NCBI RefSeq assembly: GCF_000002865.3
Contig: NW_001865040.1
Span: 974,939 to 1,038,938 of the forward strand
DNA from: Monosiga brevicollis MX1
Taxonomy: Eukaryota > Opisthokonta > Choanoflagellata > Craspedida > Salpingoecidae
DNA length: 64,000 bases
Direction of reading: 5' to 3'
The position numbers and the translations under genes are program-made. Shown here one piece after another: positions 6,420-63,600 of the stretch (position 1 is its first letter; the number at the start of each line of letters is the position of its first letter). The notes under the pieces are model-generated. The model had not been told where the DNA came from, did not search any database, and saw only the letters and a list, made by a program, of their open reading frames with translations.

Positions 6420-7442
6420 ACGTACGTGGGGGTTTTTTTTTATGACGAGGCTCGACGGGCCGAGTCACACCCCTGATGAGGCAAGGTCAGGTCTCGAATT
6501 GAGGTGGCGCGGGACTGCACCTTACCCACCCACCCCTATTATTGATTGCTTCACATCATCATGTCCTGGATCTGGAGAAGGACAGGAAAGCAAGAACGCG
6601 AGCCTGTGTGGATGACGGAGATGTCAGAATCAGCAAACCCTCTTGCACGCCTCATCGTCATCATCAGCTATTCTCACCCGTCAAAAAGCACGCGGACCGG
6701 GCACACTCGGCGCAGCTCGGCGCAGCTCGGCGCCATCAAGATGAAGAAGACACATCGCCTGCGCCTGGCTCTCTTCGTCGCTTGCTGGGCACTGGGGCAA
6801 CTCAGTCAACAGCTGTCAAAGCACCTCGTCGTGCCCTCCTTGCTCCATGAAGACAAGGACTTGAGAGTTTGTGACGACTCTCTTCACCCAAGACCCGGAG
6901 GCAGCCAGCCACCCAAACCACGACCTCCCCAACAAGACGTGCCGAAGGGGTATAAGCAAGCAAGGTGGGGGGGTGTTCGACACGCGCGTGCTTACAAACC
7001 CCTGCTTCCCCCACACCCCTCCACCCCTTCTTGCGGTCCTTGCATATCTTCCCCTTCTGTACCTTCTTCATCTTTCTTCTTCGTGTTGTTCATGTGCTTT
7101 TGTTCTTCATCCACCTCGAGTGACCTCACCAACCCCCCAATCCACACCCATCAACCCACATTCCACCCACAATATTTTGTGGATGCATGCACACCAGTCA
7201 TCATCACTTGGTATATCCACACCACACCCTCAAAACTCATCCAACAACCACTCGCGGCAACCACCCACCACCACCTCCTCTCCATAGCATTACAGTTCCG
7301 GTTTCGTGTCGAGTGGTATTTTTTTTCCACCCTTTCTACGTTTTCACAAATACCGTTTACTTCCCTTGTTCGTGGTGTTGTGAGCATTTTTTTGCTTGCA
7401 GCTCCGACCACATCCACTTTGACACACACACACACCACGAGC
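6420..7442. other. Gap between unknown gene and kinase
   Basis: C- and T-rich sequence with no conserved protein signal. A frame in phase with the downstream kinase stays open for about 900 bases upstream, but its translation is Ser/Pro/His-rich low complexity, so I treat it as 5' flank or UTR of the kinase. Confidence 0.6.
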
Positions 7443-8342
7443 ATGGACCTGCAGCTGTTAGCAGACCGCTACCTCTTGCAAGAGGAGGTCGGCTTTGGTG
7501 CGACTGCGCGTGTGTTCCGGGCCTTTGATCTCTCCTCGGGTGAACCAGTGGCCATCAAGGCCATGACCGCTGACGCGGCCGACGCTGCCAACCACGAGTA
7601 CACTGCCATGCAGCTCATGTTTGGTACACCCAATGTCGCCAACGTCCGCGATGCCTTTGTCGAGGGCAACAAATGCTATCTCGTCCTCAAGTACATGCCC
7701 AATGGCACCTTGTACCAGCGCATCAAGCCCTGTGCTGAATCTTCCGTGGCCAGCCTATACGACCTCCAGCGCTGGTTTCGCCAGCTGGTCGGTGCCGTCG
7801 AAGCCTTTCACCAGCGTTGCCTCATCCACGGTGACATCAAGCCTGAGAACTGCCTCATTGACGAACAAGAGAACCTTGTCCTTCACGACTTGGGCACGAC
7901 AGCAGCCGTTGGTCACGTGCATAGTGGGCGTCTGATTCCCGGCACTGAGTACTACATGGCCCCCGAACTCTTGCAACGGGCTCCCTGTGCCCCGGAGCAA
8001 GATGTTTGGTCCCTCGGCATTGTGCTGCACGCCATTCTTCTCTCGGATCTGCCTTGGCGTCGTGCTGATCCTTCGGATCCAGCGTTTGCCGCCTATCTCA
8101 AATCGGGCCGCCTGGCCCTTGGACCCCGCGCTTCTTTGCTGAGCCATGAGCTCCGCGAGCTTCTTGGCCGCATGTTGGAACCGGAGCCTCGTCACCGTGC
8201 CTCTCTGCTGCAAGTGGCTCTCTTTCTGGATGCCGGTGTGCCTTGGTTTGAACACGAAACTTCTCGTGTTCTCGTCAACAAGCCCAGCCCGATTCCCATC
8301 CACCTCAACCCCGCTCACTGTGTTCGTGGCCTTGTTCTCTGA
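7443..8342 (+). CDS. Intronless protein kinase, Ser/Thr type
   Basis: A 299-residue, single-exon protein kinase domain with almost nothing else. In order: glycine loop VGFGATARVF, VAIK lysine, alpha-C Glu in NHEYTAM, catalytic loop HGDIKPENCL, metal motif DLG, GTEYYMAPEL and the DVWSLGI region. The catalytic Asp, the Asn and the DxG Asp are kept, so activity is plausible; HRD is changed to HGD and DFG to DLG. The start at 7443 begins the conserved fold about 9 residues before the glycine loop; the frame stays open upstream but looks non-coding. Being intronless is unusual here, where all other genes have introns; it could be a retrocopy or a naturally single-exon gene. Substrate unknown. Confidence 0.93.
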   Translation: MDLQLLADRYLLQEEVGFGATARVFRAFDLSSGEPVAIKAMTADAADAANHEYTAMQLMFGTPNVANVRDAFVEGNKCYLVLKYMPNGTLYQRIKPCAESSVASLYDLQRWFRQLVGAVEAFHQRCLIHGDIKPENCLIDEQENLVLHDLGTTAAVGHVHSGRLIPGTEYYMAPELLQRAPCAPEQDVWSLGIVLHAILLSDLPWRRADPSDPAFAAYLKSGRLALGPRASLLSHELRELLGRMLEPEPRHRASLLQVALFLDAGVPWFEHETSRVLVNKPSPIPIHLNPAHCVRGLVL

Positions 8343-19070: not shown

Positions 19071-21323
19071 CTAACCTGTCCAAGAAGACAGTGCGGCCAC
19101 AACAAACGCCACGGGCAGCACGAGATTGTCAATCTGAGTGGTCGAGAGCTCAAGTCCAGCCACTGTCACGCAGGCAACCAGAGCCCGATGCCAAGGCACA
19201 CCGTCTATTAGGCCACCCCAGTTCTACACCACAAAAAGCAAGGCGAGCACACAGGTCGTGACGGAACAATGCAGTGCATGCAGCAACGCAGTAGCCCGCG
19301 CTCAGGGCCAGGCACATACCAAGAGCCACAAGGCAACCAGCTGCGAAACAACGCAAGCCAAAAAACCTTCAAGGCTTTTCTCTACCACTGGGAGGCGCCA
19401 GCGACCATATCTATCCAGAGAAGTTCAACAATGTGGGTTTTGCGGCACTCCAAAGCACACACAAATTTTGAAAGTTGCGCGTTGCAGAACAAGTCCGCAG
19501 CCAAGCAGGGGCACAGCAGGGTAGGCGAGCTGTACCGACCAACAACGTACCGTCGCCCAACGAGCGATGCAAAGGTATCACCGATGCCCACGGCCAGCAC
19601 ACCACCATAGGCCGCCCAAAAACGAGCGCGCGGAAGGCACCAGAATGGAGCCAGAGTGCCAAGCAGTAGATACAGTGGCGTGACGGTCAGGAATCCCTGA
19701 TCGCGCGCATCGCGCAGCTGGGCCTGCACCAATTCAACTAAGCAGCCCGAGAATAAGGGGGTGGTGGTGAGTTACCAGAGCCAGACTAGAACACCCGAAG
19801 GCCAAAGACGGGCGCAGGAGACCACTCAAAGGCATACCCCATGTCGCAACTGGCTCGATACCGCAAGCTCGCACAAGTTCCAGGGAGACATAAAGCGCAA
19901 CCGCACCAGCTCCCGTCACGATGAAGACATCAGAGTGCCACGCCATCAACTAAAGGCAATCACATCAAGAGTTAACCAAAGTCACACAGCATGAGCGCCG
20001 GACACCAGGTCCGAGTGGAGGCACGAGCCAGAGTCAAAGCGTACAGGAGCTAGTAGAAGAGCTGCGGCCACGTGATAAACTTTGCGAAGCTCAATCTGCC
20101 GGAGCCCACTGCTGGCGTGAAAGCTCAAGAACGTGGCCAAGCCTACTGCAACTCCAGTGAAGAGCAGGGCCATGGCAAATATCGGCCACTCACGCAGGAC
20201 CAACCGGAGCAGGTACAACAGTAGATCCTGCACACATGACACACGCGCTATGAGAGGGCGAGCCAATGATCGACGACGGTGAGAATCAAGAGCATGCAGA
20301 TGAGCTGAGAGCAAACCTGCTGCATCAGACTCGTGGCCACCACATAGCCAAGAGCGGCATGACCAGCAACCAGACCCGAGAGGACAGTCGGCAGCGTCAC
20401 CGGGGGCAGCCAACGGCGTGCAGCCCCCGCACAAAAGAGCAAGGCCATGATAACCCCAAGGACAGCCTGTTAGAACCAGCGAATCACTCGGCCACCGTGA
20501 GCAGAGGCATTGCATAGGAAGAGCAAGCATGCCCCGTCCATGGATCAGCACCATCTCACCAGTAGCACTGCCCAGGGAGCGGCCACAGGCTCAGTCGACT
20601 GGGCGGCCTGAGCCAAAGCCAAGAGGGCAGCCTGCCAGCCTAACCACGACAACAAGCACCGATCCGTAAGACATGGCGTGCTCTGGACTGAAGCGCGAAT
20701 AAACAACCGTGGGCTGCTGGTGCGCTCGGCGCACCTGTTGTCAGAAGGAAACTTTCACCGCGCGTGAATGATGCTGGGGCACACCATCGCAGCAGGGCAG
20801 CAAGGACCACGGCTATAGCACTGTTTACAAGCGAGCTCGCACTGGGAACATGGTACGCATAGACTGGTAGTAAAAGGAGCCAGGCGCAGGCGATCTGCGG
20901 CTCCCAGACACGCCATGGAAGTCCGAGAAGCAGAAGCGTGACAACGCTGTCTGGAGCGAGCGAGCGCCACGCTGGCGGTGCCACGTGGCTCCAAAGCGGC
21001 TCTACAAGCAGAGTCGAGAGAAGGCCAGCCCCTGCCAACGGTCGTTCCCAGGATGACCTCTGTGCCGGCTCCCAGAAAGCACCTCGTTCCAAGAGGATGG
21101 CGGCACTTACTACAACCCCCATCAAAGTGAGGACAGGCCGTTTCAGTGAGGCCTGTGACGTTGATATAAAGCGCGAGAAATCTACCAGATGTTGCATACC
21201 TAAAGTGCCAGATAGCACCACGCCGATCCAGTTGGCTGGACCTTGCACAGTGCTCAGGATGGCCCAGGTGGCCAAACCTTCCAGGCTCGCCCTCAACCCG
21301 AACACGGGTCGAGGTGACATCAT
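19071..21323 (-). CDS. DOLK: Dolichol kinase
   Basis: CTP-dependent dolichol kinase of the ER membrane, which makes dolichyl phosphate, the carrier for N-glycans, GPI anchors and O-mannose. Predicted 514 residues (human 538), multi-spanning. Family signatures appear in order: FTRGESFLLTTG, ELRKVYHVAAALLL, ALYVSLELVRACGIEP, TPLYLLLGTLAPFW, YGGVLAVGIGDTFASLVGRR (CTP-binding region), VEKSLEGFLACVVSQ and the C-terminal LSTTQIDNLVLPV. Eight exons with matching phases: 21323-20735, 20639-20560, 20466-20317, 20227-20045, 19949-19838, 19737-19551, 19410-19320 and 19223-19071; total 1545 nt. Two ATGs lie in tandem at 21323 and 21320. The last hydrophobic tail ends SSWTG. Confidence 0.96.
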
Positions 21324-21690
21324 GTCGTCTCGTGTGCAAACAGCAGTCAAACGTCTGACAACAACAAGAACCCCGATTTGCCTTTGAAATTTTGGTCGTG
21401 TTGACGATGAGTGGTGGCTCTGTGTGCGTTTGACGCCTTTTTGTTTTCTTTGGAAGGGTCATGCGCATTCGGTTGATGGTGGAATGAATGATCGACAAAA
21501 GGAATCAAATACATGCGGATGTATCAAAAAGCCAACGCTCTGGGCACCTGTCCCGAAGAGCGCACAAGCACGACAAAAAAAACAAAACAAACAACGACAA
21601 ACCAAAAAGAGGACAGCCAAGGTGCCATGGTCAAGATGGTGGTCGAACATTCAATAGTTCGTCGGTGCTCCCTAAGGGCGACACCTCTAT
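21324..21690. other. Gap between DOLK and kinesin-FYVE
   Basis: Holds the DOLK 5' flank and the kinesin 3' flank, both minus-strand. A-rich around 21575-21610. Nothing else seen. Confidence 0.6.
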
Positions 21691-24600
21691 TTACTCATAA
21701 GCAATAAAAGTGGCCGAGGCCATATCAGAGGCTTGTTGAGCCTGTTCCATGCCCTCCCCCAATGAAGCCAAATCCCGCTCTACAATGCTCAAAAAGGCGT
21801 GACACTCGGCACAGGCGCGGACCGGCCGCTTGGAAGAGCCCGTGGTCACCCGATCGGCACAGCAGTTGCCGCAAAAGGCCTGTCCGCAGATTCGACAATG
21901 ATGGCGCCGGTTAGTCAGCGTGGTGAAGGTGGCGCTACACGCTTGACAGGTTGCTGACGCTGCATCCCATTTGGTCAAAAATTTGCTGCGGAAAAATTCG
22001 AGCTCTTGGCGCCACTTGGCCATGAGCTCCTCCAGCTCCTTATCCTTCTCTGCCATGGCCTTTTTCAATGCTAGAATTTGCTCATCGCGTTCATCCAGTT
22101 CTTGCTTGCGGCGCGCGAGTGTGGCTTCGTAGGTATGTCGCGCTTGAGCAAGCGTGTTTTGCTGATTTTCCAGACTAGTTCGCAGACGAAGCGCATCGGC
22201 TTCAGCTTGGGCTTGGGTTTCTGCCAAGCGGGCCTCCAGGCGAGCCACCTGCTCCTCAAGATGCTTCACCTGAACCTCCATGGTGCGCTGGAGCGTGGAC
22301 ATGTCACCCTCCCGAGCCGCTAGCTCCGTGTCGTGCTGAAACTCGAGCTGTTGAATGCGCGCGCGTTGCTGCAATGTTGTTTCCTCGAGAACGGTGGCCC
22401 GTGCTGTTGCTCGGGCCAGCTCTGTTTCAACCTCCTGCAAACGAGAAACGAGGTGTGCTTGTTCATCTGCGCTTTTACCAGCTGAAGCTGTGAGCTGCTC
22501 CTGCAAAAGTCCAAGTTGTCGCTCCAAGTCAGCGGCGTTCTTGCGCTGTTGCTCCAGATGAGCATCGCGATCAGCAATCTGCTTGCGCAGATCATCAAGC
22601 TGAGACGTAAAAGCGGTGCCATCATCCGTGGCCTGGGCTCGGGCCTGCTCCAGCGCGCCACGCAGTTCAGTTATTTCCTTCTCCAGCTCCGCAGCATTTG
22701 CAAGCGCCGCCTCACGCTCTGCCTGAGCAAATTTTAAATCCGCCAGTACGTCGCTTTCAGACGGGATGGAAATGCCTTCCATGGTCACCGTCACCAACTT
22801 CGGGCGCTCCGTCTGCGTGCCAAAGTGAGTCTGATCCACCACGGGACTGAGTTGCAGAGTTCAAGCGACAGCGTGAGTCCCACAGACGGGCAAGGATCAA
22901 TACAGATAAAGTTTGGGCTGCACCATCAATGTCTCGCATAATCACAGCAAGACGAACAACGCTATATTATATTTCAACAGAAAACGGCAAAGACTGCACG
23001 CAACAGTTGTCCGTACCGCTGTCCACGACTGCGTTTGAGAGCCGCCTCCAGCCTGTGGCGTGGTCGGAACCCGACCAACAATGCCAAGGTGAATTGTGTG
23101 GGGAGAAAGATACGAAAAAAGGCAGATGAGGTGAGAGTCATGCATCATCTGACGACTCGCAGCCCACATCGGCTACGAACGACATGATACTGACCTTGCC
23201 ACCTCAGCTCGAAGAGAGTTCATTTCTTCAGATGAGCGGACCACGTTCACGACAGGGCGGGTGACAATGCGCTTGGCCCGGTCAGCTGTCGTTCAGTTGA
23301 GCAGTGACGCGGTGCATAGTCCAAGGAAGTAATAGAAAGAGCGGAGACACGGAGAGGGAGACGGAGGTGTTGGAAGTGAGGGCTCTGAAGCAGGTGGAGA
23401 TGATCATCTCTTGGAAGCACGAGTTTGAACAGACATACCATATTGCAAAGTGCTGAAGGTTTCGCGAAGGGATGAAGCGGTTGGGCTTACGGTGCCAATC
23501 ATGTAAGTTTTTGCGTTGCCTCCCAAGGAGTCCTTGAGCAACCACGTCAGCTGAGAGTCACGGTATGGCACGTGCTCCTGAATTGGTGGGTCAACAAGAG
23601 GAAGAGCGGGAAGGCATGAGGAGTTGGCGATACGAATGGTGGCCACAGTGCAGAAGTAAAATATTGTGATGCCAAGACTGGCTCAACTCATGATGACTTT
23701 GTGGGCCAACATCGGAAGAGCGCACTGACCTTGTTCGATTTTTTTGTGGAGGCCGAAGAGGACGAGGCAGAGGAAGTCGGCTTTGCATTCTCAGCCAAAG
23801 AGCTGAGGCAACGACCAAAGAAGACGAGGGACTTGTTGGTGATGCCGCCTTCCTGGATGCGAGCCTCGTTGAGGGAGTCTGTTGCGCTGATGCGCTCAAA
23901 GCCAGCCAAGTCGACGAGATTGATGCGGCTAGTAGTTTGAACTTCCAAGCCGTTTTTGACGGTAAACTGGCGTAAGACGAGAGTGAAGATGGCATGACCG
24001 CGGTTGGAACTGTCGTTCAGATCCACGCTAGCTGTTCGACGGTGTTGCTGGCCCCGAAACACGAGATGCCGTATATTCTCTGCAGTACTAGCGTCATGCT
24101 GTGATAGATTCTCCACAAAAGGCCCCTCTGTCGGATGCTCGCGGATTCGCAGCTGTGGCCGCTCCTCGGCGGGGGAGTGCAGGAGATCGCGCACTTTCTC
24201 ATTGTAAAGCTCGAGGTAGGAGGCGGTCAGAGAAATCTCTCGGCCTTCCAATCGTGCACGCTCAATCAAGGCTTCGCAAACCGTGATAATCAGCCCTGGC
24301 TCCTGCTCTGTGCCGACCATGGTGAAGGTCTTGCCCGAGCCAATCTGACCAAAAGCAAAAAGGCAAACGTCTAGAAGCGAGCATAACAGCAATGCCATGG
24401 CAAGGGGAGGCAAGCCTTAAGAACTGCAGCCCCAAGGAAGTTACTCAAAGAGGCCAGAGGGGGAAAGAGGAACATACTGAAGCCATGAAGGGCATCTTCA
24501 ACGATGCTGGGGCCTACGGCATCAAAGCACCGGGTTTGATTACCCGGATCAGCCTCTTCATCAACAAAGGCATTATTATAGCGGTACGTCTTCACGTCCT

Positions 24601-24871
24601 GAACCCCCGACGTGTTCTGTTTGCATCAGAGGCCGGCAGGTGACCACAGCGAAAGGTGAGTGCAAGGCGGCTTGTGCCGGGTCGTGTGACTTGTTGTGCC
24701 AACCATGTGGGTACTTGGGTGTTTGCATGGCCATGCAGGACGCCGCACCGTGTATGCGACACAGAGTCGGTCCTCGAGGGCCTGAATGGCAACATCCTCG
24801 TCGTCATTGTCATGGGCATTGGGAGGACGCACACGTACAGCCACGTGAACATTGCCTCGCAAGTCACTCAT
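21691..24871 (-). CDS. Kinesin motor with coiled coil and C-terminal FYVE finger
   Basis: Predicted 756-residue kinesin with a motor (1-365), a long coiled coil (about 385-660) and a FYVE zinc finger (665-724), suggesting plus-end transport of PI3P-positive endosomes (inference, by analogy with PX-bearing KIF16B). Motor motifs: VAVRVRPP, P-loop [33 protein letters not shown] and neck [21 protein letters not shown] motifs: RRHHCRICG with eight Cys/His ligands and a final ACAEC. Six exons with matching phases: 24871-24749, 24598-24478, 24370-23730, 23577-23439, 23285-23195 and 22846-21691; total 2271 nt. The junction between neck and coiled coil (donor GTCAGT at 23194) is what makes it one gene. 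Switch I reads NDSSNRGH rather than NxxSSRSH. Confidence 0.9.
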
Positions 24872-25446
24872 GGCCCGATGGTGATGGCTGGCTAGGAGCA
24901 CCGCTGCACCTCAGGATAATTGCTCCTGTTAATTGAATAGGACTGATTTCTTGCCTCAGTGAGCTAAGTGAGGAGCAGCCACCCGCCAAAGGGTGAGAGC
25001 CATGAAAGAATATTGCACGTTGGAGCTCACCCAGCTCGGACCAAGCCCCATGTTCGGCCAAATGCGAGCTGGCGGATTATCGATGCTGCCAGCCTCAAGC
25101 ACGTGCTCGCCAGCTTCAGCTGTAGGCTCAGACAGCAAACAACCGCCCGCTCCACCGCGCTTTGAACAACACCACAACCCCTCTCTCACCTGAATTGGAA
25201 TTGAAGCGCTGCCGCCCCAAAAATCAAAGACAATGATCAACCCAAAGCAAAATAAGCAGGAAGGGTGGGGGAAAAGTGAGTCCAAGTCACAACAACTGCC
25301 TCACAACACAACACAACACATCACAACACAAGAGAGATATGTATAAGTAAAATACTTACGTTTAAACCGCGTTGGTCGCTTGTCAGATGAAAATTTAAAA
25401 TGTTGGTGGTGGTGAGTCACAGTTTCACCACCGACACCTGCTCACC
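24872..25446. promoter_or_regulatory. Divergent kinesin/helicase intergenic region
   Basis: Head-to-head gap that probably holds both promoters (inference). Contains imperfect CACAA repeats at 25295-25330. No motif identified. Confidence 0.4.
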
Positions 25447-34499: not shown

Positions 34500-34843
34500 T
34501 TTTTGACGATCAAACAAACGAGCTTGGGCTTCAGCGTGTCTTCGGGCCCGTTGACCAACCACGCTCCAGAGTAGGATGGGGCATAATATAAACATGTCGT
34601 CGAAACACGCACAAAAAGTTTTGTCTGACAATCGAAGAAACAACAACAACAGCAAGAACTCACAATTCATCCTTTCCCTTCGCACTCCTCTCATCGGCTC
34701 AACTCTTCCCCGTCGACCTTGTCACCGTGCCCTTGTGGTTCTTCGCCTCGTTGATGTCGTCCTGATAGCACCCGCCTGTCTGCTAGTGGGACGGCAGGGG
34801 GAGGGGAGGTTGTGGTTTGCTGGTGATCACCCGTGGTCCAGGC
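34500..34843. other. Gap between helicase and kelch receptor kinase
   Basis: Same-strand gap. Contains a CAA-rich patch near 34638-34655. No coding signal seen on the plus strand; minus-strand open frames are shadows of the helicase end. Confidence 0.6.
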
Positions 34844-37800
34844 ATGGGCCGCGCGCCTCTGATCATGGCGGTTTCTCCACATGTCGGGCTGGCAAAGCAC
34901 TTGGTTGTCCTGGCTGTGCTTCTGCAAATAGCACTGGGAAGCCAAAACTTCAACGTCTGGACCGGGGCAGTACCAACCATTCATGCTCCCTCGGCGCGTG
35001 TGGGCGCCGTCTTGGTTGAACTAGACGGGTCGGTGGTTCTCCTGGGCGGTATGGCAGGTCCATTGGCCGACAACGACCTGGCTCTTATGAGACCGGAGGG
35101 TGATCAATGGTCCCTCGCCTCGTCTTTACAGGGCTCTTGGCGGTTTGTCCAGGCCCATGCCGGTTTGAATAGAGCCTTCCACGCGTGCACACAGTGGCAC
35201 CCAGGTCGTGAGAGCATTGCCTGTTTTGGTGGTCTATCCCTTGACCCACTCACCCAGACCATCCGCGCACTCGACTCAACCGTTGTGGTCGGCCTGACTG
35301 CGGATATCGCTGTGGTGGAAATCAATGCTAGCCGAGTTAACGCACCTCTTGCTCGCTTTGGGCACGGTCTAACACGTCTCAACGCACCAAACACGGACGC
35401 CAGCAATGCTGCAGATGGTTCAGAGGACAGTGGAAGCTGCTTGGTTGTATCCGGCGGTCTCGACCTGCAGAGTAACGGCCAACAAGTGTTGCCCAGCCGC
35501 TCCTTCGAACTTCAATGTGGCTCCATCTTTGCCCCATGGCATCCCCTGATCGCCTCTGGGGGAACTGAGCCCGCACCACGCTTTGCACACGTCGCGCAAG
35601 CACTGAACGGCACGCACATGGTTGTCATGGGCGGGTGCGACCAGACTAGCTATCATTGTCAAGCCGCCAACTTTCGTGCGGACGTCTGGGTCTTACGTCT
35701 ACAAGCTTCCACTGCTGGAAGCCCTCCTCTAGGGCTCTGGCATCGGCTCAGTCTGACCATTCCAGCAGCAGGCGGGCAGCTTTTTTCCCATTTCTGGGCT
35801 TTTGATGCTGAATTGGAGCAGCTTTACTTGCTGGACAATTCGGATGAGGATTTGATTGATTTCCGTGTCCTCACCTTCCATGGCTCAGACGCCAGCGCCC
35901 AGACCATGACAGCGGCCCCTTCCAGCATGCGGCCTGCTGCTCGTCAAGGGTTTGCGTCGGTCTTTTTTCAAGACAACTTCCTGGTACGAATGGCGCCATA
36001 TTTAGCAGCCGCCGTGACAGCCCATTCCTGCTCACACTTGCGCGTGCTGGGTCGGATCGCCGGCATCTGCAGTTGTTTGGCGGCTATAGCGGCCTCAGCT
36101 ACTTGAAAGATGCTCTTGCCTTTGCGCCTCAGGGGCGATTTTGGGTAACGGCCATCGATGAAAGCGTTCCAGGCGTGCAGGTGTGTTCTTTGTTCTCAGA
36201 GCGCCTTTATGTACCAAAACGTAGCATGATAGCATGATAGCATGATAGCATGATAGCATGATAGCAGGATAGCAGGATAGCAGGATAATGTGCTATTGCC
36301 AGGCTCGCCCTCGCTCGCTCTGTTCTGTCCTCATGTGAGTGTCATTGTCCATGCTCTTGCTATGCCTTAGGCCATCGGTGCCGCCGTTACGCTGCATCCG
36401 GATCGAAGGACCATGACGCTGATTGGGGGGCGACAAGACGATGGGCGGGCCGTGAATGGGCTCTGGGAACTTGCCGTTAACGATATGGTGTGGACATTGG
36501 CTGCACCTTCTTTGCAAAGCAGTATGGGCGAGGATCTGTCCTCCACTTCGACCTCTTTGGTGGACAGCGACCACTTTCTTCTGTTTGGAGGCATGAATAC
36601 GTCCTGGGACGTAGTCAAGCCTCACTCATCCCTGCTTCTGGTTCATTTCAGCGGTGCTAATGTGACTGAGGTGCATTTCGACGAAGGGCCTTCCGGACGC
36701 GCTGGTCATCAGATGGCCCTTTTGGGTCCTCAAGGACAACGGCAGTTGGTCATTGCCGGCGGGTGGCAGTATCTCGACCAGCTCAACCTCAACGCCAGCC
36801 TAGTTCATGACGACGCCTGGGTGGCTTCCTGGCCGCCCACAGACCAGGCCGTCACTTTTGAGCGCCTACCCGACTGTTCATGGGGAGGGCTTGCGAGTGG
36901 TGCTGGTCAGTGACCGTGTTGTGCGCGTGACCGGCGCCCGTAAATCCGGTTCCCATCCTAGCCGACTCTGGCTCTGTGTGTATCCACTCATGGTATCCCT
37001 TTGTCACTCAGCGCTGGAGTTGAACATCAACGTTACAGGTCTATTGCTCTTTGGAGGCTATTCGCGAAGATTGGGCCGTATCGACACGGAAGGACGCCTG
37101 CTGTTGTCAACCAATGGTGCTTGGACTTGCGAGACCATCAGCACAAGTGTGGCACGGTACGTTTCTGGCTGCCAACTATTCAAGGGCTTGCCATACCTCT
37201 TGCCTTGTTTTTAAGGTAGGCATTTGTTCATCTGACTTTCATCGTTTCGCACCGGGGTGGCCCAATAGCCCGCAAGTGTTCTTCTCTGCGTCGGCTCAGA
37301 CGGCCAGTGAGAAGCTGATGGTGTATGGCGGTCTTCGGCTGGCTGAAGACGGAGCGTGGGAGACGGTGAGGCTGCAAAAAACACTTTGCTCGAAGCAAAC
37401 CACAGTTTGCTGTTGCTCTGCCTCACGTGGGCACGAATGTTCTCATCCCATGACTCGGCTTTTGTTGGGCCTTGGACCCTAGAGTTCTGAATTGTGGTTG
37501 GGCGAGTATGATCATGGCACCAAATTTCTTCGTTGGCTCCTCATCTCTGAGTCGGCCCTTGCCGGTCACTTTGGTTCGACCGCGACTGTTGCAAGGTCAG
37601 CTGCTTTGGCCATCATTGTAATTGCATGTGTGGCATTGATTGGGTCGCGTTCTCACGGGCATGGGCCGATGCATCACTTGCTGAACGGCCAGTCTCGGAT
37701 CTTACGATGTATTCCTGCTCTTCGGCGGCGGAACCGTTGCCAAGGACCGCGTTTCCATGGATATGGTTGGTGCACTCTGGCACACCTTCTCTGTCAGCCC

Positions 37801-40444: not shown

Positions 40445-47593
<7,149 letters not shown>

Positions 47594-60600: not shown

Positions 60601-63600
60601 TTTTTGCTTTCGGCTTGAAAGCAAAAAAAAAAAAAAACCATATCACTGGATGGCATCTAACCTTGTCTTCCTTCTCAGCTGCAAGTGCCAGATATCTTGA
60701 GGCTTTTCCAGGAATGTGTGCTTCAGCTCACGCACACATGTCCTGAGGTATGTTTGGCCGTCTGGATCACTGTACCCGACTTGAAGAAGCGAACACGGCA
60801 TTTGAAACGGCCTTTTTCCATTTCGTAGGCAAAGGCCGACCTGCTGCAAGCCTTGGCTTCGGCGTTTTCTCAACTTGGCCAGGACCAAGAGATTATGGCC
60901 TTGGATTTGCAGTCCAACAACGCCAACCACCTGCTTTTGCGTGGATATGCCAGCTTCAATCTCCTGCAGAAGTTGCACGCGAATCGCCAGGTCAGATTTC
61001 TTTTTGAAAGTCTGCTGCGCCTATCTCAAGTTGGGTACTTACCGCCAATGTTCGTTAACTTAGGCTTCGAAGCGAGCCAAGGGCAAGCTGATTGAGCAAG
61101 TGCGTGAATCAACGTTGCAATTGTCACAGCTACGCCTGAGTCTGAAGCAACAGCAGAGCTACGAGGTCTTGCGAGCACGCCTCAAAGAGGCCGAGGTGAT
61201 TGACATGAACACGTCAATTTCTTCACCCGCGCCAAGAAGTCCAGCGGTTTCAATGGCAAATTCTCCTCGACTTCAGAGTTTACAAAGGCGTCAAAACGAA
61301 TTGCGCAAAAGGCTGCCAACAGGTGACTTAGTCACAACAACCCCATCGCCTGGCAGAGCTGCTGTTCCTCATGGTGCCCTCAGTCCGTTGAGCCTGTCGT
61401 TTGCTGTGGATCAGAGTGACATGGAAGGTCAAGGGTCAAGTGGCAGCTTTCCGACCCAAAAAAGCTTTGACAAGTCCTTGTCAGGCGCCGCTGAAGGTGG
61501 TTCTGGACAACCCACCGCCTCAACGACGGTGGCTTCCACGATGCTGTCTCCAGCAGGCAGTCCGGTTGCCACTCGTGGCCAAATTTCGGCACCTGATGCC
61601 GCAACTGGCTTTGGTGGCCCTGTGAGCAAGCCTGTGACCACGCCTCAAGCTTCTTCAGCGTTGGCGTTCGGTGAACCTACAGCTACGTCTATAAAGGAGT
61701 CAACTGCAGCCTCAGGGCTCAGTTTTGGCAAGCCTGCCACGCCTGCAGCAACTCCGGCCACTAGTTTTGGCAAGCCTGCCACGCCTGCAGCAACTCCGGC
61801 CACTAGTTTTGGCAAGCCTGCCACGCCTGCAGCAACTCCGGCGGCCGGTTTTGGCAAGCCTACAGCAGCCAGCCCCGGAACAACAACTGCAGGAGCGTCA
61901 ACTGCAGCCTTAGGGTTCAGTTTTGGCAAGCCTGCCACGCCTGCAGCAACTCCAGCTGCCAGTTTTGGCAAGCCTGCCACGCCTGCAGCAACTCCAGCTG
62001 CCAGTTTTGGCAAGCCTGCCACGCCTGCAGCAACTCCAGCTGCCAGTTTTGGCAAGCCTGCCACGCCTGCAGCAACGCCCGCCACTAGTTTTGGCAAGCC
62101 TGCCACGCCTGCAGCAACTCCGGCGGCCGGTTTTGGCAAGCCTGCCACGCCTGGAGCAACGCCCGCCACTAGTTTTGGCAAGCCTGCCACGCCTGCAGCA
62201 ACGCCCGCCACTAGTTTTGGCAAGCCTGCCACGCCTGCAGCAACGCCCGCCACTAGTTTTGGCAAGCCTGCCACGCCTGCAGCAACTCCGGCTACTAGTT
62301 TTGGCAAGCCTGCCACGCCTGCAGCAACGCCCGCCACTAGTTTTGGCAAGCCTCGACATCAAGCCTGCAGACACTCCACTGGGCTTAAGCAAGCCGCGAC
62401 GCTTTGACTCAATCGTCTTCAACGGCTTCGACAAGTCACAGTCCATTTGCACCATCTGAGTTTCACGAGTCACATCAACAGGTCTCAGCTGTGGGACCAT
62501 CGGGGTCCAAACTTCTTCAATCGCTTCATGCTGAGATGGCGAAAAGTCCATACACCACCCCTTCAGAAGAGATTATCGGTTTGTGTACTTGCACTTGCAT
62601 GCGCCCACTTTAGAACGATGACATAACCATACAGAAAACATCTCACTTGATTTGGTGCTTAACAGAATATTTTCAGCCAACTGCAGAGCAGCTTGCACAC
62701 GCGGAACGATTGTACCTTCCAAAGGACTTTTTTGCTGACAGCCCGAAGAAGAAAACGGATGTTGTACACATCGATGGCGAAGAAGAAGCAGCAGAATCGC
62801 GCAAGACAAACATCATCAAGAACGTGTATGGACGAGAAAAAGCCGCATCATTCAACACGAGCGAAAAAAATGTTCAAGATTTTGCACAAACAGAGCATAA
62901 GAGAAGCTTTGCTGGATTTAGCGGTGTGAGTGGTTTTGGAGGCTTTGGTGCTTCTAGCGGCTTTGGCGGCTTTGGTTCGCTGGCCAAGCAGAGCGGCACC
63001 AGCTCTGGCTGGGGCAACAAGAGCGGCGGCGGTGACGCCGGGGGCCTGAGCTTTGGCAAGGTTCCGAGCCCACTATTCGGTAGCATCTGCGCGATGGGCA
63101 GAGTGGCCGCGTGCGATTTGTGATGCGCCGGGACCAGACGGGCCGCTTGGCGGCGAATCATTGGCTGCGTCATGACAGCGAGGTGAAGGGCTTGTCGAAC
63201 AATGACAAGACGTTGTCGTGGAGTGCGTTTGATGATGTGGACGACGAGGAGGCGGAGAAGCGAATCCACTCGTTTTGCATCCGGTTTAAGACTGCGGAGA
63301 TCCGGGAGGAGTTTGAGACTGCGCTGAAGGAGGCGTTGTCAAAGGCCCCACAGGATGCGGCTGTTGTGTCAGAGGGGTCTGACGCTGCCAAGGCAAGCGG
63401 CACCAGTGCGGGCGTGAGTGCGAGCGGTGCCAGTGCGGGTGCCAGTGCGGGTGGCTTTGGCAACGGTGGCAAGAGCCTGGCGGCCCTGAGTGCTGAGACG
63501 AAGCAGCAAGGGGGCACGTCTGGTTTTGCTGGGTTCAGTTTTGGCAGCGCACAGGGTGCTGCGTTTGGTGTGTCTGACCAGAAGAAGGCCGCTGCCGATG

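Follow-up and report, generated by a model that had tools for sequence, protein, structure and literature searches.

KIF16B is a kinesin-3 whose PX domain pairs with PI3P, according to the accessible text of PMC9845747. A sequence-only reading of a 64,000-nucleotide stretch of the Monosiga brevicollis MX1 genome (contig NW_001865040.1, positions 974,939 to 1,038,938; hereafter the window) proposed that one gene in it joins a kinesin motor to a FYVE finger, as an independent solution to the task of KIF16B. The locus raises the questions of whether motor and finger form one protein, to which kinesin class the motor belongs, and whether such a protein could connect PI3P membranes to microtubules.

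Gene structure of the FYVE kinesin

Spliced translation of the minus strand gave a single reading frame from 24871 to 21691 that crosses seven exons and six GT-AG introns of 107-170 bases. Its coding sequence of 2307 bases specifies a 768-residue protein with the order kinesin motor, neck, linker, coiled coil and FYVE finger, bearing out the proposed in-frame union of these parts. The start ATG lies at 24871, with an in-frame stop upstream at 24913. Six exons had been counted and a direct 23195/22846 junction assumed; this junction skips a 36-base exon at 23052-23017, which encodes the end of the neck and had been overlooked. Profile searches agreed with both domain calls, giving Pfam scores above cut-off for Kinesin (298.6 bits, cut-off 29.3) and FYVE (PF01363, residues 678-734; 53.7 bits, cut-off 27.8). 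The features of the gene are listed below.

24749..24871 (-), exon 1: start codon and first strand of the motor; donor GT, in frame; in-frame stop upstream
24478..24598 (-), exon 2: N-terminal motor; in-frame splicing
23730..24370 (-), exon 3: core of the motor, comprising the P-loop (GQIGSGKT), switch I (NDSSNRGH), switch II (DLAGFE) and the start of loop 12
C55:998722-999309, kinesin profile match of exon 3
23439..23577 (-), exon 4: end of the motor; kinesin match C55:998363-998518
23195..23285 (-), exon 5: ADRAKRIV and the N-terminal half of the neck
23017..23052 (-), exon 6: 36 bases, end of the neck; preceded by AG and followed by GT, with the frame kept
21691..22846 (-), exon 7: linker, coiled coil and FYVE finger, closed by the stop codon
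22810..22821 (-), GTQT motif, possible LC8 site: residues 393-396; the second gene, described below, has it at residues 500-503
21796..21966 (-), FYVE zinc finger: residues 678-734; four CxxC pairs, NRRHHCR; Pfam PF01363

The sequence of exon 6 has its counterpart in the neck of the second gene, where an intron of the same alignment column and phase lies just before it, followed by LKKELKK. The introns on either side of exon 5 likewise share column and phase with introns of that gene. As both introns flanking exon 6 are in phase 2 and skipping it preserves the frame, this exon could be alternatively spliced. Neither AATAAA nor ATTAAA occurs on the minus strand between 20500 and 25500, so that polyadenylation signals did not help to define the gene ends, and the exon models of both FYVE kinesins were picked by hand with kinesin and FYVE homology in view. 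Judged from its coding sequence, the kinesin-FYVE gene in the window is real.

Directly downstream of it, a hydrophobic open frame at 20643-21458 (-) has no Pfam match at E 0.001. Elsewhere in the window, a protein kinase domain (151.8 bits) occupies a single open frame at 6546-8339 (+), a Kelch-like beta-propeller frame with matches below cut-off lies at 34787-36103 (+), and a regular array of SFGKPATPAATPA repeats, which matches nucleoporin FG weakly and also below cut-off, extends over 61064-62404 (+). Two adjacent long frames at 40448-45005 (-), one a coiled coil (43269-45005) and the other with PH_MRCK and CNH domains (40448-42577), resemble the C-terminal portion of a citron/MRCK-type kinase.

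A second gene of the same architecture

Profile searches of the assembly (39.5 Mb in 57 contigs, one genome) yielded 131 kinesin hits. Sorted manually, these represent 39 loci, the minimum number of kinesin genes. A FYVE match lies about 1.4-1.6 kb downstream on the same strand at two of the 39: the window gene and locus L039 (C56:2872734-2875601), the only other place in these searches with both domains on one strand. The L039 model has twelve exons and encodes 863 aa, with Pfam scores of 283.5 bits for Kinesin and 51.9 bits for FYVE (cut-offs 29.3 and 27.8).

The two proteins can be aligned across their entire common length in the same domain order, with identities of 156/348 (45%) in the motor, 18/52 in the neck and linker, 70/222 in the coil and 38/78 (49%) around the FYVE finger. 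Three of the six window introns match L039 introns in alignment column and phase, and for two more an intron of equal phase lies 9-10 columns off, in gapped parts of the alignment; no L039 intron lies near the last one, before exon 7. This likeness in sequence, order and introns indicates that the fusion of motor and FYVE finger most likely predates the duplication that produced the pair.

It also bears on whether a kinesin gene and an adjacent gene for a FYVE coiled-coil protein were wrongly joined. An in-frame ATG in good context (GTGACCATGG) does exist at 22782, within exon 7 before the FYVE part, as a separate start for the FYVE portion would demand, and both gene models were joined by hand from genomic sequence. 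However, L039 keeps the motor-to-FYVE order and encodes the GTQT linker in the same exon as the last part of the neck, and a neighbouring pair would have had to be duplicated as a unit. The internal start is disfavoured, and with L039 of the same order we reject two separate genes as very improbable.

Two sets of candidates for a third FYVE kinesin were discarded. The FYVE hits at C56:2770342, C55:1462874 and C55:1463269 lie less than 10 kb from kinesin loci on the opposite strand. Locus L050 (C54:342542) groups weakly with the FYVE pair in the motor tree (support 19.9/33), and a pattern search of the 6 kb downstream of it found no FYVE-like motif. Among other families, the assembly gave 150 scored cadherin-repeat hits, as befits a choanoflagellate; one of 14 control genomes, an archaeon, also matches.

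Kinesin class of the motor

For the 37 loci other than the FYVE pair, exon pieces were stitched onto a motor profile built from four sequences, the FYVE pair among them, which leaves these sequences approximate at exon ends. A tree of 39 rows was calculated from 35 of these loci, the two FYVE kinesins and the solved motors of KIF13B and KIF14; L074 and L077, with fewer than 190 columns each, were left out. The FYVE kinesins are sisters (support 99.6/100) and fall in a clade with KIF13B, KIF14 and nine other genes (98/98). Consistent with this placement, the closest solved motors among the matches listed are KIF13B and KIF14 for the window gene, and KIF1A and KIF13B for L039. Assignment of the window motor to the kinesin-3 class is thus supported by its sequence. 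The tails of KIF13B, KIF1A and KIF14 are not known to carry a FYVE finger.

An FHA domain after the neck is common in kinesin-3 proteins and is not universal among them. Pfam detected none in either FYVE kinesin, and none of the nine FHA hits in the genome lies at these loci. We did not treat its absence as defining for membership of the class.

An altered ATPase site

In the kinesin switch I motif NxxSSR the second serine coordinates Mg2+, as described in the accessible part of PMC5498027. Switch I reads NDSSNR in the window gene and HPTSHR in L039, placing Asn and His at this position; among the other genes it is Ser in 34 of 35 and Thr in one (35 recovered of 37 examined). Switch II reads DLAGFE and DMAGIE, respectively, with Phe or Ile where all 34 other genes recovered (37 examined) have Ser. 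The canonical motifs NxxSSR and DLAGSE are therefore absent from both FYVE kinesins, whereas KIF13B and KIF14, the two solved motors compared, carry canonical SSRSH and DLAGSE. Change at the same positions in both genes argues against sequencing error. The P-loop Lys, the switch I Arg and the switch II Asp, Gly and Glu are retained in both. The gene with Thr at the Mg2+ position (NMASTRSH) is a separate kinesin, L071 (C45:352900-355500).

Replacement of this serine has been characterized in human Kif5A, in which change at the position causes disease (PMC5498027). In the data available from that study, the Ser to Cys mutant glides about 30-fold more slowly (15.4 instead of 486 nm/s), shows a larger microtubule-bound fraction in ATP, and retains 2.00 vs 6.77 ATP/head/s with 23.5-fold microtubule stimulation; the residue tested there was Cys, and the FYVE kinesins carry Asn or His. 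With the Mg2+ serine missing in both genes, slow movement or tight binding would be expected, and by analogy with Kif5A, which became slower and more microtubule-bound, we infer a slow or clamping motor. Taken alone, we put this at slightly less than an even chance. Asn or His may still hold Mg2+, and the Kif5A mutant retains ATPase activity; slow movement is accordingly a forecast.

The same residues can be read in other ways. The switch changes might be tolerated, with PI3P endosomes carried much as by KIF16B in ordinary fast transport. Retention in both genes of the neck, the P-loop Lys, the switch I Arg and the switch II Asp, Gly and Glu would fit such a motor, as would the fact that both motor frames stay open at 45% identity. 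It is harder to reconcile with the near-invariance of both serines in the other genes recovered (Mg2+ serine, Ser 34/35 and Thr 1/35; switch II, Ser 34/34) and with the roughly 30-fold loss of gliding speed in Kif5A (PMC5498027), and we consider fast transport possible, if on balance doubtful. At the other extreme, the heads could anchor endosomes as a microtubule-binding scaffold without a productive ATPase cycle, a reading in line with the changes in switch I and II, which fall on matching positions in the two genes. Yet a dead motor need not keep the P-loop Lys, the switch I Arg and the switch II Asp and Glu, and the Kif5A mutant at the Mg2+ serine is slowed, not dead, in the data available (PMC5498027). 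An inactive motor is improbable on these grounds, and a slow or clamping one is the reading that we carry forward.

FYVE finger, coiled coil and linker

The CxxC pairs of the window finger read CQAC, CRIC, CGNC and CAEC, and all eight zinc ligands are present in both genes. FYVE domains that bind PI3P have the motifs WxxD, RRHHCR and RVC. The basic motif is RRHHCR in the window gene and RPHHCR in L039; in both, the WxxD element is two residues short with its W kept, and RVC reads RAC. Binding to PI3P may be weak or altered as a consequence of these changes. They would also suit a finger that is FYVE-like and binds another lipid or a protein instead. Against this stand the complete zinc ligands of both genes, the intact RRHHCR of the window gene and its nearest solved FYVE domain, which among the matches listed is that of EEA1; we regard a finger that does not read PI3P as unlikely, and PI3P remains the ligand that we favour. 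As in EEA1, where FYVE terminates a long coiled coil according to the accessible text of PMC9492833, the finger follows a coil; unlike EEA1, the window protein has a kinesin motor in place of the Rab5-binding zinc finger, and a shortened WxxD.

A single-sequence AlphaFold2 model of exon 7 predicted an almost unbroken helix over exon residues 30-312, with block pLDDT dropping from 71 to 46. The helix overruns into the FYVE part, which begins near exon residue 294 and did not form its fold, and the first 25 residues, holding GTQT, have pLDDT below 50. The model is informative for the helix only and poor for the FYVE part.

GTQT lies between neck and coil in both FYVE kinesins. TQT is the core of LC8 (DYNLL) binding sites, and we take GTQT in the two linkers to be an LC8-type motif; the genome encodes a dynein light chain assigned to the LC8 Pfam family. 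When both linkers were shuffled 20,000 times, a shared 4-mer of any kind appeared in 2.6% of trials and TQT occurred in both linkers in about 0.1%; the linker borders had been set after GTQT was seen. An LC8 site at GTQT is for this reason suggestive only.

PX kinesins and the route to PI3P

KIF16B and Klp98A carry their PX domain at the C terminus, after the coiled coil. Neither FYVE kinesin has a Pfam PX match, and all 30 PX hits in the genome (E up to 10) are more than 43 kb away from each of the 39 kinesin loci. On this basis no KIF16B-type gene was found, in a search by exon pieces of one assembly that can miss short exons and may be incomplete; a KIF16B ortholog with a hidden PX domain was set aside on the same count. 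The absence of the PX design and the presence of two FYVE designs are weakly consistent with replacement of one by the other.

The window gene resembles KIF16B and Klp98A in combining a kinesin-3 motor with a PI3P-type lipid domain (PMC9845747, in the text accessible), and differs in having FYVE instead of PX, no Pfam FHA, altered switch I and II and a GTQT linker. The earlier proposal of an independent solution stands in part: with a kinesin-3 motor, FYVE in place of PX and no PX kinesin found, an independent FYVE-based route to PI3P is plausible. In view of the short WxxD, the RAC and the lost switch I and II serines, we only infer that the task is the same as that of KIF16B. PI3/PI4-kinase family genes are present in the genome. 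At C35:543933-545662, one such domain has a PX domain 0.9 kb beyond it, in the same orientation, and we take this to be perhaps a class II PI3-kinase.

Discussion

These features suggest a protein of the kinesin-3 class that probably links PI3P endosomes to microtubules. The coiled coil would dimerize it, perhaps stapled by LC8 at GTQT, and the paired FYVE fingers would hold the dimer on PI3P-rich early endosomes or phagosomes while the kinesin-3 heads bind microtubules. With FYVE on the membrane and the heads on the microtubule, the organelles would be linked without an adaptor. Slow movement or tight binding would make the protein an anchor or slow transporter rather than a fast one. FYCO1 and protrudin also couple PI3P membranes to kinesin, as FYVE proteins that recruit kinesin-1 according to the accessible part of PMC9845747; there, motor and FYVE are separate proteins, whereas the window gene would place them in one polypeptide.

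We did not find a kinesin-FYVE fusion described in the accessible parts of the FYVE, PX and kinesin-family literature searched; domain-architecture databases may well show one. In a 2010 survey of FYVE and PX proteins that covers Monosiga brevicollis, the main text uses the term kinesin a single time, in the PX column of its Table 1 (PMC2837644). The main text of a kinesin survey has no FYVE, and its supplement of 105 architectures may list the fusion (PMC2867816).

The window gene would thus be a kinesin-3 in which the PI3P-type lipid reader is a different one and the active site is unusual. A more far-reaching and rather unlikely scenario is that the lineage swapped a PX endosomal kinesin for a FYVE kinesin without the canonical Mg2+ serine. 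Such a protein would be a PI3P-gated microtubule clamp, or a motor adapted to another metal, and would keep endosomes or phagosomes parked along microtubules. If the proposed function is correct, a kinesin-3 would be coupled directly to PI3P membranes through another kind of lipid reader, in a unicellular organism closely related to animals. The pair would also offer a natural test of a kinesin with Asn or His at the Mg2+ serine, the position of human disease in Kif5A according to the available text of PMC5498027.
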